A stretch of 42,455 nucleotides of DNA from Rhodospirillales bacterium (GTDB lineage Bacteria > Pseudomonadota > Gammaproteobacteria > Nevskiales > Nevskiaceae), in assembly GCA_903970615.1 (NCBI GenBank), contig CAJCJH010000064.1, positions 1 to 42,455 of the forward strand, given 5' to 3'. The translations under genes and the position numbers were made by a program. The notes beneath the pieces were generated by a model, which saw nothing but the letters and a program-made list of their open reading frames with translations, did not search any database and was not told the DNA's origin. Below, piece by piece: positions 1 to 6,561 of this stretch; the stretch's first letter is position 1, and each line of letters starts with the position of its first letter.

Positions 1-646
1 CAGGAGTTGCTTCGTCCGCAGGGTCCAAGACCTGCCTGTTCGGCAGATCGGCGATCCATGGAACCCAGACGTTTCGCCAACTTTCCGCGATACCTGAGAG
101 GTCCGAGGCCCACGCCCTATCGAGAGTCTCCGCAATGAGCGACAGGTCATCGAGCCGGGCGATCGCGCTCAGCGCTATTTCCGTCGAACCAGGCACACGC
201 TGCCGATCAAGACCTCGAATGAATGAGCCGAGTTGATCTATCGAGGCAGCGGGAACTTTTCTGCGGCGATGACCAAGGCGCGACCAACAAACTAAAACAA
301 ATAATCCGCGAAGACGTTCATGTTCGGGCGGCGGAATTGGGTGCTGTGTTGCAAGCGTGGCTGATCGCGGGAACAGTTCGGTCCTACCACGAAAATCCAA
401 CCGCCGCCTGTCCAGCGCCGCAAGTTCTCTAAGCCCTTTGCGAATCTCAAATCCGGGAACCGAGGTCGCGCGTTCAAACAGCCATGGGGCTTCCTGCTCG
501 ATACTCAGTAATCTGCTACAAATTGCTGGCACCAGCGAGGTATTGGGTACTTTGAGCGAAAGCAGTAGTTCTCGAATGGCGTCGCGGCCCGGCAATCGGC
601 CTGAAAGCTGGTCTACGACCTTCTGCAAAGCCGGGTCTTTAGTCAT
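1..646 (-). CDS. Unknown island protein, N-terminal 215 residues (gene runs off the left edge)
   Basis: An open frame starts at ATG 646-644 and reads leftwards without a stop to the window edge, so only the N-terminal part is visible. I checked every codon of the frame for stops. A plausible ribosome site, GAGG, lies 8 nt upstream of the ATG. The protein begins MTKDPALQKVVDQLSGRL and is soluble, with no signal peptide or membrane segment. It looks mostly helical, with leucine-rich helices (for example IRELLLSLKV, IRKGLRELAALDRRR, ALSAIARLDDLSLIAETL) that could form a helical-repeat fold. I do not recognise the family. It is the first gene inside the island, reading inwards from the attachment site. 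That position can hold a recombination or maintenance gene, but no catalytic motif is visible in this part. Codon use is less GC-biased than in the core genes. Confidence 0.75.
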   Translation of the reverse strand, partial: MTKDPALQKVVDQLSGRLPGRDAIRELLLSLKVPNTSLVPAICSRLLSIEQEAPWLFERATSVPGFEIRKGLRELAALDRRRLDFRGRTELFPRSATLATQHPIPPPEHERLRGLFVLVCWSRLGHRRRKVPAASIDQLGSFIRGLDRQRVPGSTEIALSAIARLDDLSLIAETLDRAWASDLSGIAESWRNVWVPWIADLPNRQVLDPADEATP

Positions 647-928
647 ACAACAGCCTCAGTTCGATGGGATGGCAATATTAAATTGGACAAGTCCTATCAG
701 TTACCCAGAGGCATCGTCCGATCCAGTCAACGGAGAAAAGGTCATCCCAACCCGTCGAGATGGGCTGCATTTGAGATTCAATCGCCCTTTTCACTGGGCT
801 TAATTAGATAAATACTACCTCGGAACTGTCTTAAAGGACTCGATCCAAGTTAGTGATTACAAGCTTGGAATCGGAAATAGCGTAACTTAGCATCACCCTA
901 AATCGCTATGTATCATTGTTCAGATAAA
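647..928. other. Non-coding island terminus between the unknown gene and the attachment site
   Basis: About 280 bp of AT-rich DNA lies between the start of the inward-reading unknown gene and the tRNA fragment. No supported gene is present. A 44-codon plus-strand frame ending at 803 has no convincing ribosome site. The segment must hold the promoter of the minus-strand gene, but I could not pick convincing -35/-10 boxes. The only structure I see is the imperfect inverted repeat at 841-873. Confidence 0.6.
841..873. repeat. Imperfect inverted repeat near the island boundary
   Basis: CGATCCAAG at 841-849 is the reverse complement of CTTGGAATCG at 864-873 except for one bulged base, with a 14-nt spacer. 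It lies about 55 bp from the tRNA fragment. That is within the range where integrase arm sites or excisionase sites are found in tRNA-targeting elements, but no such role is shown. It could also be chance or a weak hairpin. Confidence 0.35.
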
Positions 929-975
929 CCCTCCGAAGGAAGAAGTCAGAGGTTCGAATCCTCTCGGGCGCACCA
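929..975 (+). other. Attachment site: 3' fragment of tRNA-Arg(CCG)
   Basis: The tRNA-like parts can be read directly. The anticodon loop is at 931-937 with anticodon CCG (933-935), and the 3' anticodon strand GGAAG is at 938-942. A 5-nt variable loop follows at 943-947. A perfect 5-bp T stem (948-952 with 960-964) encloses the TTCGAAT loop. The 3' acceptor strand CGGGCGC is at 965-971, with discriminator A and an encoded CCA at 973-975. Upstream, only C929 and C930 still pair with the 3' anticodon strand. The next three bases (AAA) do not, and there is no D arm or 5' acceptor strand. So this is not a tRNA gene but the 47-nt 3' end duplicated by integration. It marks one att boundary of the island. 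A degenerate tRNA pseudogene is less likely because the retained half is intact. Confidence 0.88.
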
Positions 976-1010
976 TTTATACGTCCATTGATGACCGAAG
1001 ATGTGCAGAT

Positions 1011-1034
1011 AACCGCGCTTTTGCGCGGTTTTTT
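1011..1034 (+). terminator. Rho-independent terminator of the original tRNA-Arg gene
   Basis: AACCGCGC (1011-1018) and GCGCGGTT (1023-1030) form a perfect 8-bp stem with a TTTT loop. The stem is followed on the plus strand by further T residues to 1034. The T tract is only on the plus strand, so it ends transcription coming from the left. It sits 35 nt after the CCA of the tRNA fragment, so it is most simply the terminator of the ancestral tRNA transcript, left on the chromosomal side of the island. No gene is seen between 1035 and 1220. Confidence 0.85.
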
Positions 1035-1220
1035 GTTGGGTTTCGGTTTTTCTCCGTCCACCACCGTTCAAGGGAATCCACGGCTTGAATCGGGTAAGAA
1101 GTCGGGTAACTTGAAGCGTAAGCACTTCTTCCGGACAGAGTTACGCGGCATGCAGTGCTTCGCATATCTCGTCCAGATCAGTCTCCACTACTCCAAACAA
1201 AACAGCATCGACACGACCAC

Positions 1221-2084
1221 TCAACCGAGCGACTGAATCGGAAATCGCTTTGACGGATTGACGATCTGGTTTTGCGCGGCGACCAGCGGCAGATCGCGCG
1301 CGCCGGCCTCAGTGCGTTGGACCAAGCCATACAGTGTAGCGACCGCATGTTCCAGCGCCTGCGGCAAATCGGCGCCGCGCAAACGCGCGCCCAGCAGCAC
1401 GGCGGAAAATACATCGCCCATGCCGTTCGGCAGCGGCTGCAGGTCCAGATAAGGCGTCAACACGCGCCACGCCTGTGTCGCAGTCACCGCCAGCGTTGCC
1501 AGAACTCCGCTGGCGATTTCCGGCGTGCGCAAGCTGGTGATGACGACCGCGCTGAGGCCGCATTGCGCGATCATTGCGCGCGCGGCCGCAATCGCGTCTT
1601 CGGTGGAAGTCAGCTGATGGCCGCAGAGCAACTCGAATTCAAACTGATTCGGCGTGATGATATCGGCGGCAGGCAGCGCCGATGCGCGTAAAAAATCCGG
1701 AATTCCGGCGCGCACAAAAATGCCTCGGCCGACATCACCCATCACCGGATCGCACAGATAAATCGCATCCGGATTGGCGCGTTTGACTCGGCCCACCGCG
1801 TCGACGATCGCCGCACCGGTAGCCGCATCGCCGAGATAGCCGGACAGCACCGCCGCACAACGCGCCAGCACGCCGCGCGCGGCCAGCCCGTTGAGCACGT
1901 CGCGGACATGTTCCGCGCCGAACAGCTGGCCGGTGAATTCGCCGTAACCGGTGTGATTGGAAAATTGCACCGTATGGATCGCCACTACTTCGACGCCGAG
2001 ACATTGCAGCGGAAACACAGCGGCAGCGTTGCCGACATGGCCATAGGCAACGTGCGATTGAATTGACAGGATCAGGGGGATCAT
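1221..2084 (-). CDS. pdxY: Pyridoxal kinase PdxY
   Basis: PdxY phosphorylates pyridoxal with ATP in the vitamin B6 salvage pathway in the cytoplasm. The 287-residue protein starts MIPLILSIQSHVAYGHVGN, the characteristic PdxK/PdxY N terminus. It has TVQFSNHTGYGEFTG, the CDPVMGD segment, and PNGMGDVFSA near the C terminus, which is the ribokinase-family anion hole with its catalytic aspartate. Length is normal for the family. I took ATG 2084; a TTG one codon upstream is possible. No strong Shine-Dalgarno is visible. It is divergent from the DUF4124 gene, sharing a 183-bp intergenic region, and its 3' end faces the tRNA remnant. PdxY rather than PdxK is based on overall resemblance. Confidence 0.93.
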   Translation of the reverse strand: MIPLILSIQSHVAYGHVGNAAAVFPLQCLGVEVVAIHTVQFSNHTGYGEFTGQLFGAEHVRDVLNGLAARGVLARCAAVLSGYLGDAATGAAIVDAVGRVKRANPDAIYLCDPVMGDVGRGIFVRAGIPDFLRASALPAADIITPNQFEFELLCGHQLTSTEDAIAAARAMIAQCGLSAVVITSLRTPEIASGVLATLAVTATQAWRVLTPYLDLQPLPNGMGDVFSAVLLGARLRGADLPQALEHAVATLYGLVQRTEAGARDLPLVAAQNQIVNPSKRFPIQSLG

Positions 2085-2267
2085 CAATCAATAATTTGGC
2101 AGAAGTCTCGATCGAAGCCCGGGCAGGCTTGCGAACTGCAACAGTGTCATTGTGGCCGATCGCGGGTCGGCAGCGGAATGCCGAAAATCATCAGAAATCC
2201 CCATTTCGGTTTTTCGTCGCCCGCCAAGACCATTGCCGGTTAAGACGCCGCAAGTTATCGTTTGCCG

Positions 2268-2753
2268 ATGCGCCGACTCGCCATGCTCAGCCTGCTGCTT
2301 GCCACCGCCGTGCAGGCGGACGTTTATCGCTGGACCGACAAGAACGGCGTGGTTCACTACGCCGACAAGCCGCTGGTGCCCGAAGCCAAGCCGGCCGATT
2401 TGCCGAATCTGCAAACCTATCAGGCTGGCTCGCCGCCGCCGCTGATCGATCTGGCCGCCACGCCGCCGGCGCGCGGGCTCATCAACATCAGCTCGCCGGC
2501 CAGTGGCGCCTCTATCGACGATGCGGATGGCTTGACGATCGAAGTCGCTACCGAAATGGCGGACGGTCAGGGCGTGGTGTATTACCTCGATGGCGCGGCG
2601 CAGAACAAGACCCCGACACCTTCCACTGCGCTGCTCATCAGCAGTCTGAAACCGGGCGCGCATACCGTCACCGCCGCGCTGGTGGATACCAGCGGCCATG
2701 AGCTGGCACGCGCCGCGCCGGTGAAGATTTCCGTCAAGCCGGCGCCGCATTGA
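2268..2753 (+). CDS. DUF4124 domain periplasmic protein
   Basis: This is a small exported protein of 161 residues. A signal peptide (MRRLAMLSLLLATAVQA) is followed by the DUF4124 hallmark DVYRWTDKNGVVHYADKP at about residues 18-35. After it comes a proline-rich linker and an Ig-like beta-sandwich segment (residues about 75-160, containing SPASGASIDDADG and GAHTVTAALVDTSG). DUF4124 proteins are widespread in gamma- and betaproteobacteria and their function is not established. The ATG at 2268 puts the signal peptide at the N terminus; a TTG two codons upstream is less likely. It lies 52 bp before ntrB on the same strand. From memory, a DUF4124 gene next to glnA/ntrBC is a recurring arrangement, so co-transcription with ntrBC is likely, but that does not prove a role in nitrogen control. 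Confidence 0.85.
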   Translation: MRRLAMLSLLLATAVQADVYRWTDKNGVVHYADKPLVPEAKPADLPNLQTYQAGSPPPLIDLAATPPARGLINISSPASGASIDDADGLTIEVATEMADGQGVVYYLDGAAQNKTPTPSTALLISSLKPGAHTVTAALVDTSGHELARAAPVKISVKPAPH

Positions 2754-2805
2754 GCTTGCGCCAAGCCACGGCGCAATCATTACCCAATTTGCGGAAATCC
2801 TGCCG

Positions 2806-3874
2806 ATGAAATTTCCCGGTCTGAAGCGCGTCGCGCCGGCCTCGGTGCTGGATGGCCTCAGCACCGCGGTGATCGCGCTGGATCAATCGCTGCGCGTGGC
2901 CTATCTCAACTCCGCCAGCGAAACGCTGTTCAGCGTCAGCCGCAAGCATGCGTTCGGATTGCCGGTGGCGCAGGCGCTGCCGCACTTCAGCGCGATCGAA
3001 GCGCGACTGCGGCGAGCGCTGGAAAACGGCAGCGGTTTCATCGAACGCGAACTGCGTCTGCGGCGCAGTGGCGAGGAGCCGATCGCGGTCGACTGCACGG
3101 TCACGCCGGTGACTTTGCCCGGCCCCGGCCTGCTGCTGGAAATGCTGCCGGTCGATCGCCACATGCGCATTTCGCGCGATGAATTGCTGCTCGCACAACA
3201 CGAAGTCAGCCGCGAACTCATCCGCGGCATGGCGCACGAAATCAAGAATCCGCTCGGCGGCATTCGCGGCGCGGCGCAACTGCTCGAAGCCGAATTTCCC
3301 GATTCCGAACACCGCGAATATACGCGCGTCATTATCCGCGAAGCCGATCGCCTGAAGAATCTGGTGAACCGCATGCTCGGCCCCAACAAGCTGCCCCAAA
3401 TGGCGCCGGTGAACGTGCATGAAGTGATCGAGCATGTGCGCCAATTGCTCGAAGCCGAGGCCAGCGACAAGATCGCGGTGACGCGCGATTACGATCCCAG
3501 CATTCCGGAAATCGTCGCCGATCGGGAACAGCTGATCCAGGCGCTGCTCAACATCACCCGCAACGCCCTGCAATCGCTCGACGGTCAGGATCAGAGCGGC
3601 AAGATCGTTTTGCGCACCCGCACGCGGCGCCAGTTCACCATCGGCGGGCAGCGTCACCGGCTGGTCGCACAGATCGATATCGAGGACGATGGCCCCGGAA
3701 TTCCCGAATCGCTGATGGAGCGGATATTCTTCCCGATGGTAACCACGCGCGCCGAAGGCACCGGACTTGGCCTGCCGATTGCTCAGTATCTGATTCACGC
3801 ACACGGCGGCTTGGTGGAATGCACCTCGCGTTCCGGGTGTACCGTGTTCTCGATTTTCCTGCCGCTTGATCTCG

Positions 3875-3894
<20 letters not shown>
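2806..3894 (+). CDS. ntrB: Nitrogen regulation sensor kinase NtrB (GlnL)
   Basis: This cytoplasmic histidine kinase/phosphatase sets the phosphorylation state of NtrC and is normally controlled by PII proteins. The 362-residue protein has an N-terminal PAS domain (about 12-120) and no membrane segment. The H-box is GMAHEIKNPLGG with phospho-acceptor His144. An HATPase domain follows with N-box ALLNITRNAL (Asn253), G1 box DDGPGIP (294-300) and G2 box GTGLGLPIAQ. All are classical NtrB features and the length is normal. The stop overlaps the ntrC start by 20 bp, implying translational coupling. The usual upstream partners glnA, glnK and amtB are not in this window. Instead the pair sits behind a DUF4124 gene and pdxY. 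Confidence 0.96.
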
Positions 3895-5329
<1,435 letters not shown>

Positions 5330-5364
5330 AACCTTCGTGATGCGCGATCGATGCCGCCTGGTCG

Positions 5365-6561
5365 ATGTCTGAAATCACCGCAACGATTATCCAACACGAA
5401 GTGACCGGCGCGGCTTCTGGCAAGCAGTCCGGCGAAGAATCCATCGACGCTGAAGGCGCCGTTCGTTTGGCATCGCTCGTTGTGCCTCCTGCCGATTCGA
5501 CCGGTTCAGTCCGGCCCGATTCTCCGCCGATCGGCTTTCTGGAACGGCTGCCGAAATGGCTGATCTGCGTGCCGCTGCTGCTGCAATGGATCGCGCTGGG
5601 CCTGCGCCACCGCAGTTTCATGCTGCCTTCGCTGGCGAATCCGAAGATCACCGCGGGCGGGCTGCTCGGCGAAGGCAAAAGCGAATATTTCGCAGCGATG
5701 GGCCCGCACGGCCGCGCCGCCACTGCGGTCAATGGCGTGTTCGTCGTCAACGCCGGCAGCGCCAGCGACGAAGCGCGCGCCTGCATGCAGCGCTTGGGCC
5801 TGGCTTTCCCGATCATCGCCAAGCCGGACGTCGGCTGGTGCGGCTTCGGCGTACGCAAGATCGAATCGGCTGTCGAACTCGATGCCTATCTGCGCGCATT
5901 TCCGCTCGGCGAGCGCGTGGTGCTGCAGAAATATGTGGCGCAGCCCGGCGAAGCCGGTGCGTTTTATGTGCGACGTCCGGGTGAACAAACCGGCGGCATC
6001 ATCGGCCTGGCGCTGCGCGAATTTCCGCGCGTGATCGGCGACGGCCGCAGTAGCATGGCGCAACTGCTGGCGGCGAATCCCCGCACCGCGCGGCTGACAC
6101 GCGACGGCCTGCACGATTTCCAATACGCTCCCGATGAGGTGCCCGACGCATGCCGCGTAGTGCGGCTGGCGACGATCGGCTCGACGCGCGTCGGCGGCTT
6201 ATACCGCGATGGCGCGCGGCTGATTACGCCTGCGCTGAGCGCCGCGATCGACGCCATTGCCGGCGAAATGGATTTCCACTTCGGCCGCTTCGATCTGCGC
6301 TTTGCCACCGAGGCCGCATTGCAGGCCGGGCAGTTCAGCATCATCGAAGTCAACGGCGCAGGTTCCGAGGCGATCGAGGCTTGGGATCCGGCAACACCAC
6401 CACTGACTGCATTCGGCAAGATTTTCGCCAAGCAGCGCCTGCTGTTCGAGATTAGCGCAGCGCATCGACGGCGTGGCTTGCGGCCGATCGGGATGCTGCA
6501 ATTGCTGCGGCTGCACCTGCGTCAGCAGAAATTGATCCTGCAATATCCGCCATCGAACTGA
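5365..6561 (+). CDS. Membrane-anchored ATP-grasp ligase-like protein
   Basis: The 398-residue protein has a disordered N terminus (1-55). One hydrophobic segment (about 65-80, WLICVPLLLQWIALGL) is followed by the motif RHRSFMLPSLANP and then GGLLGEGKSEYFAAMG. The rest resembles an ATP-grasp domain. It has a lysine in IIAKPDVGWCGFGV (about 151-163), GERVVLQKYV, and near the end GRFDLRF and FSIIEVNGAGSEA, whose Glu and Asn fit the Mg-ATP ligands. ATP-grasp enzymes join a carboxylate to an amine or thiol through an acyl phosphate; the substrate here is unknown. Similar membrane-linked proteins are often labelled D-Ala-D-Ala-ligase-like, which I would not adopt. It starts 35 bp after ntrC on the same strand and ends 20 bp from a convergent methyltransferase gene. 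Confidence 0.8.
   Translation: MSEITATIIQHEVTGAASGKQSGEESIDAEGAVRLASLVVPPADSTGSVRPDSPPIGFLERLPKWLICVPLLLQWIALGLRHRSFMLPSLANPKITAGGLLGEGKSEYFAAMGPHGRAATAVNGVFVVNAGSASDEARACMQRLGLAFPIIAKPDVGWCGFGVRKIESAVELDAYLRAFPLGERVVLQKYVAQPGEAGAFYVRRPGEQTGGIIGLALREFPRVIGDGRSSMAQLLAANPRTARLTRDGLHDFQYAPDEVPDACRVVRLATIGSTRVGGLYRDGARLITPALSAAIDAIAGEMDFHFGRFDLRFATEAALQAGQFSIIEVNGAGSEAIEAWDPATPPLTAFGKIFAKQRLLFEISAAHRRRGLRPIGMLQLLRLHLRQQKLILQYPPSN

Follow-up and report, generated by a model that had tools for sequence, protein, structure and literature searches.

We studied a 42,455-nucleotide stretch of DNA (the window), which forms the left end of contig C64 in a 3.17-Mb draft genome of 126 contigs (G000). Its positions 1-975 are very probably the distal junction of an element with a tyrosine integrase that splits the host tRNA-Arg(CCG) gene in the anticodon loop and carries a complete replacement tRNA. 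By the textbook rule, an element that enters a tRNA gene brings no more of it than is needed to repair the break. To a broader proposition we give somewhat better than even chances, namely that such elements form a family that destroys an apparently single-copy host tRNA gene and replaces its function, in a layout that arose at least twice (in a Nevskia-like clade and in Pseudomonas defluvii) and is hidden from island finders that search for nothing beyond an intact tRNA and a single fragment.

Junctions on contigs C64 and C24

The left end of the window contained the 3' part of a tRNA-Arg(CCG) gene (CCCTCCGAAGGAAGAAGTCAGAGGTTCGAATCCTCTCGGGCGCACCA, read directly; Table 1), with T arm, acceptor strand and CCA present and the 5' part absent. 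ARAGORN called no tRNA in the window, and the clean 47-nt 3' half reported in a preliminary description of this DNA was confirmed by both sequence and ARAGORN. These 47 nt recurred with 100% identity as the last part of an intact tRNA-Arg(CCG) in the same genome (C24:22887-22963), so the fragment is not a chance resemblance. A terminator-like hairpin and T run (AACCGCGCTTTTGCGCGGTTTTTTG, read directly) followed at 1011-1035, where a terminator had been described at 1011-1034, and the earlier impression of different DNA to the left of the junction also held: G+C content was 58% in 1-500, 47-48% in 501-1250 and 60-66% in 500-base intervals from 1251 to 6000. Among the loci compared, DNA of positions 1-928 matched only its own copies, and its 215-aa ORF had no relative in 40 related genomes, the viral contigs or the plasmids.

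Table 1 Features at the left end of the window
Feature	Position	Strand	Remarks
Probable right-hand (distal) end of integrated element, accessory DNA	1..928	.	Lower G+C; junction 929-938 as boundary
ORF of 215+ aa, runs off contig start	2..646	-	Without Pfam, PHROGs or PADLOC match
10-bp direct repeat CCCTCCGAAG	929..938	+	Common to orphan 5' half junction C24:22834-22843
Anticodon loop CTCCGAA, 7 bases; putative overlap region of strand exchange	931..937	+	
Probable displaced 3' part of host tRNA-Arg(CCG), attR side	929..975	+	Joined in script to the C24 orphan: ARAGORN tRNA-Arg(CCG)
Host tRNA tail with terminator (1011-1035)	976..1153	+	
First chromosomal gene right of junction, pyridoxal kinase-like (pdxY)	1221..2087	-	Pfam Phos_pyr_kin 2.8e-17

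The break point on the window side lies inside the anticodon loop. The window junction and the junction of an orphan 5' half on contig C24 (see below) had only the 10-bp repeat of Table 1 in common, which was also the longest string shared by the orphan junction and window positions 851-1000 when the intact copy was excluded. We therefore read the 47-nt repeat as not being the recombination core, and its earlier designation as an att repeat was not supported. The tail of the window fragment resembled those of two other tRNA-Arg genes of the genome, at 82% for tRNA-Arg(ACG) on C86 and at 81% (over 984-1097) for tRNA-Arg(TCT) on C93. The tail of the intact CCG copy on C24 was unlike it and was partly common to carriers of the layout described below and to some non-carriers. 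The 3' tail with its terminator was 80-83% identical among three tRNA-Arg genes of this genome (window 976-1153, C86:80125-80302 and C93:761-870), and the tRNA-Arg(ACG) tails of the same-genus genomes G006 and G017, the two looked at, differed from this three-gene tail.

The preliminary description had interpreted this point as the distal junction of an element integrated at tRNA-Arg(CCG) and had proposed a search for a tyrosine recombinase and for an intact tRNA-Arg(CCG) with these 47 nt at its end; both were found on C24, in agreement with that interpretation. Contig C24 stops 1,242 bases after the intact tRNA, and this stretch contained, in order, a repressor-like HTH gene of the Cro/C1 type (PF13443, 2.6e-12), a 78-aa ORF that matched nothing in Pfam or PHROGs and is called excisionase-like by its size and position only, and the start of an integrase. 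The contig end cuts the latter after 142 aa, which matched Arm-DNA-bind_2 (PF12167, 2.9e-24) and PF14659 (1.2e-4). The element body and the catalytic part of this integrase are unassembled in G000. The missing half was not among nine integrase-domain matches in the genome, nor could the C24 end be linked through them, their best alignments being at ≤36% identity to family members, and to other subfamilies. The nine integrase-domain genes of this 3.2-Mb genome include some at the ends of C118, C18 and C86. One of them (C18:24281-24700) is less than 1 kb from tRNA-Pro(TGG) (C18:23416-23492), and C92:130-1107 (L015), near its contig start, encodes a 325-aa integron-type tyrosine recombinase, IntI-like by eye, which possibly belongs to a chromosomal integron.

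At C24:22804-22843 the same tRNA was present a second time, as an orphan 5' half that breaks off at the anticodon loop. From its start to that of the intact tRNA there are 83 bp, including a spacer of 43 nt of other sequence. The 3'-half pattern had two matches only in the genome, one in the intact tRNA and one in the window half. The intact tRNA had earlier been taken for the host gene; this was not supported, as the window fragment probably belongs with the orphan, and the intact copy was most likely brought by the element. The orphan is preceded by waaA-, gfa- and rarD-like genes and promoter-like DNA, which in the close relatives G006 and G017 precede a single tRNA-Arg(CCG), but the genes to the right of this single tRNA differ from those of the window. 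An empty site joining the intact tRNA directly to position 976, as envisaged earlier, was not seen in that form: pdxY lies elsewhere in G006 and G017, next to a glnA-like gene (recognised by eye) and not next to the tRNA. Since gene order differs in these two genomes, the comparison yielded no clean empty site with the window's right flank for G000. The window pdxY-like gene had homologues 88% and 78% identical in two same-genus genomes. The pdxY, DUF4124 and ntrBC-like genes (window 1221-5329) adjoin the glnA-like gene in two relatives (L082 and L083); the homologue of the latter in G000 is on another contig (C58:3840-5246) with other genes after it, a rearrangement.

Recurrence of the layout and associated integrases

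An extended query run against 61 genomes (the own genome and 60 relatives) revealed the double layout, besides G000, in G013, G005, G039, G035 and G029; G037, with a weak match to the query region and none to the exact pattern, was left out of the counts. A gapped-pattern scan of the genome contigs returned 22 stretches. Nine contained two complete tRNAs and were used as controls (seven Caulobacter, one Sphingomonas and one Klebsiella MAG), and 13 presented an orphan 5' half, a spacer and an intact tRNA-Arg(CCG). The latter came from Wenzhouxiangella (three), Algiphilus, Hydrocarboniphaga (two), Rhodanobacteraceae, Panacagrimonas, Nevskia, Burkholderiaceae, Pseudomonas defluvii and Gammaproteobacteria (two, by label only). 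These 13 records together with G000 and G039 make the 15 carriers considered here, some records being the same genomes as relatives numbered with G. Most carriers are MAGs or draft contigs, and two are isolates, Hydrocarboniphaga effusa AP103 (2.6-Mb contig) and P. defluvii WCHP16. Within the order the pattern was present in 8 of 85 genomes and 5 of 21 genera, and there were no matches to the orphan layout in the viral contigs.

Across the 15 carriers the orphan and the intact copy were 98% identical at positions 1-40 and 31% at positions 43-77, and all 15 loci agreed up to position 40 and diverged beyond it. The T-loop motif was present in none of the 15 first copies, as against 9 of 9 controls. 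Copy spacing was 83 in ten carriers, with a full range of 81-102. Past the break, positions 42 and 47-49 were still 80-87% alike across carriers, possibly reflecting a core-binding constraint or the remains of an earlier 3' half. As far as the pattern used could show, there was a single intact tRNA-Arg(CCG) in each of 12 carrier genomes.

In six genomes (G000, G072, G013, G069, G071 and G070) the tRNA is followed, in the same orientation, by the module of HTH gene, small ORF and integrase. The usable integrases of the module carriers (the truncated G000 copy was left out) grouped with those of G016 and G039 in one clade with 100/100 support, and that of P. defluvii, which is in the opposite orientation, grouped elsewhere in the integrase tree. 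Other carriers deviate. The module is on the other side of the tRNA in L098, and G039 has a related integrase with a stop about 57 kb from the tRNA. No adjoining integrase was seen in L101 and L109, where the contig ends at the tRNA or within 20 bases of it, or in L110, L113 and L115, where it ends within 2 kb; in H. effusa no ORF of at least 120 aa in about 82 kb downstream matched an integrase. Note that G016 fits no explanation offered here: its orphan 5' half and intact tRNA are 118 kb apart and its integrase module reads away from the tRNA. The positions of the tRNA with module (G016:C4:97875-99500) and of the orphan (215773-215819) may reflect inversion of such an element.

One element was complete on a single contig, in G072 (C25, from about 24963 to 54241, ~29.3 kb), and contained a complete relative of the integrase (PF00589, 5.8e-18). 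It had 27 listed ORFs, ten of which were scanned with Pfam and gave metabolic and integrase-type matches only: integrase and ketopantoate reductase-, aldehyde dehydrogenase-, alcohol dehydrogenase-, Rieske/ring-hydroxylase- and fatty acid desaturase-like proteins. PADLOC found no match for the five proteins submitted to it. The right end of the element holds an ORF of 981 aa that has an integrase domain, beside ORFs of 881 and 176 aa without matches; this trio, at L137:12990-19107 (negative strand), is a possible second recombinase set.

At E ≤ 1e-90, 11 of 369 genomes were positive in a class-wide integrase search. At four of its 12 loci a single tRNA-Arg(ACG) lies upstream of the integrase, and the 1.4 kb examined, or as much flank as there was, contained no second 5' half; this resembles the ordinary arrangement. 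Phage relatives of the integrase were all below 60% identity (about 29% in the best rows) and the best plasmid relative was at 46%; an Acinetobacter plasmid relative had an apparently ordinary 3' tRNA fragment upstream of its integrase.

Origin of the intact tRNA

Because the orphan, the intact copy and the window half of G000 are identical in sequence, this locus alone cannot separate the two mechanisms, i.e., restoration of the host gene and its replacement. Of the 15 carriers, five yielded a displaced 3' half, namely G000 (the window), G072 (on the same contig), Algiphilus (G070), P. defluvii (G067) and Panacagrimonas (G065); none was found in the other ten. In all five genomes with both halves, the orphan 5' acceptor strand formed 7 of 7 pairs with the displaced 3' half. 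The host stem was GCGCTCG/CGAGCGC in G072 and GCGCCTG/CAGGCGC in G070, and the intact tRNA, with GCGCCCG in both, had one mismatch to the displaced half; in G067 a host stem of GCACTCG/CGAGTGC stood against GCACCAG in the intact tRNA, with two mismatches. The orphan and intact stems are equal in G000 and G065 and are uninformative there. ARAGORN called the joined host halves a tRNA-Arg(CCG) in G000, G070 and G067 and an unassigned tRNA in G065; in G072, where the 3' half carries a deletion, the joined halves gave no tRNA. Among the 14 carriers whose first copy pair was scorable for acceptor match, supply of a 3' half alone would give an acceptor mismatch in three (L101, L104 and L114). On the simplest and most likely reading, the host gene was split into the two fragments and the intact gene is the element's. 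Loss of tRNA-Arg(CCG) should matter, given that 13 window ORFs, selected from the mechanical list, had CGG at 72 of 473 arginine codons; the ICG anticodon is not known to read CGG.

An ordinary tRNA island would explain the window fragment as a displaced half, with a 47-nt 3' half in attP restoring the host tRNA and the orphan as unrelated debris. The intact tRNA, downstream 3' fragment and integrase do stand in the ordinary order, sister integrases occur without any orphan half at the four tRNA-Arg(ACG) loci, and the Islander islands, whose attP is described as restoring the gene with the fragment it holds, include 3760 entries with a 3' fragment and 159 with a 5' one (PMC4383910, in the sections available). 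Such restoration is contradicted in the three genomes with distinguishable stems, G000 being undecidable, and a stem of the intact tRNA that differs from that of the host halves is a strong argument against it. Together with the recurrence in 15 genomes of orphan halves with the same break point and spacing, the three acceptor-stem mismatches led us to reject ordinary restoration, which we regard as unlikely.

Two further explanations have very little probability. In one, tRNA-Arg(CCG) was duplicated in tandem and its first copy then decayed, independently of any mobile element; the complete tRNA-Arg pairs in the control stretches and the carriers that have no nearby integrase speak for it. 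However, the break is always at the anticodon loop, the T loop is never kept in the first copies, the missing 3' halves were located elsewhere, at element ends, and pair with the orphan, and the integrase module adjoins in six genomes; duplication with decay was rejected. That the window half tRNA and the two-copy region of C24 arose from misjoined repeats during assembly or binning is scarcely credible: G000 is a draft of many contigs and its integrase breaks at a contig end, but the same layout occurs in unrelated assemblies, including those of the isolates H. effusa AP103 and P. defluvii WCHP16.

Proposed mechanism and relation to known elements

We propose that the element inserts between the host 5' half on C24 and the 3' half in the window, and that its replacement tRNA lies 43 nt inside its left end, before the HTH, excisionase-like and integrase genes. 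The integrase would swap strands across the seven bases CTCCGAA, with the anticodon stem providing inverted core sites. In the joined host site this loop is flanked by the inverted repeat CTTCC/GGAAG of the anticodon stem, and CTTCC-CTCCGAA-GGAAG is built like a classical tyrosine-recombinase site whose overlap is 7 bp, judged against the general form given in the available part of PMC8371274. Both host halves would then be non-functional, as suggested by ARAGORN calling neither junction a tRNA. The tRNA of the element would take over, with transcription either starting at the host promoter and running through the orphan half or starting at a promoter within the spacer. The host gene would be rejoined if the element were excised precisely, as the joined sequences suggest.

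The elements resemble Islander-type tRNA islands, as presented in the accessible sections of PMC4383910, in having a tyrosine integrase inside and an anticodon-loop target, and in having similarly oriented tRNA sequences at the two ends, one intact and the other a 3' fragment. In G000 the integrase is the 142-aa start on C24, with its complete relative in G072, and the tRNA and displaced fragment occupy, in the same orientation, two ends on C24 and C64 in G000 and on one contig in G072. Unlike in those islands, the host 5' half is here also orphaned, the intact tRNA is probably the element's and the host-junction repeat is 10 bp. By the Islander rules, in the same portion of that source, the intact tRNA and 3' fragment could let carrier elements pass as ordinary islands, and the orphan 5' half would escape notice since it would fail the 2-kb length and integrase filters. 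In the 5'-fragment islands of the same catalogue, as far as the sections at hand describe them, a 5' tRNA fragment likewise remains, whereas here host 5' and 3' fragments both flank the element. The accessible text of a review of archaeal recombinases gives the same rule of restoration by an attP fragment (PMC8371274).

The integrase relatives share with the IntBPP-1 subgroup (DUF3596/PF12167), in the part available of PMC8138268, the Arm-DNA-bind_2, SAM-like core-binding and catalytic domains; PF12167 was found in the G000 copy, which ends at the contig end, and the catalytic domain in its relatives. Unlike these elements, no carried tRNA is mentioned for that subgroup in the same pages. Tycheposons, compared by description only through the sections accessible of PMC10872708, are similar in having a tRNA at the border, a tyrosine recombinase and variable cargo, and differ in that an orphan 5' half is not described there. 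An element flanked by both host halves and carrying a complete tRNA was not found described in the open-licence PMC literature.

If the proposed replacement is true, the element need not match the host acceptor stem and can enter hosts with differing tRNAs. Short of precise excision of the element, the host would depend on it for CGG codons and possibly be captive. Ends and host genes may then be wrongly assigned in some of the catalogued tRNA islands. The carried tRNA would also be a fresh target, renewed for further insertions, on which later elements could stack. Stacked orphans, as expected from repeated insertion into such a target, were seen in two genomes: a Panacagrimonas contig (L110) has two consecutive orphan halves ahead of the intact tRNA, and a Burkholderiaceae contig (L117) has one degenerate and one clear orphan with related spacers.
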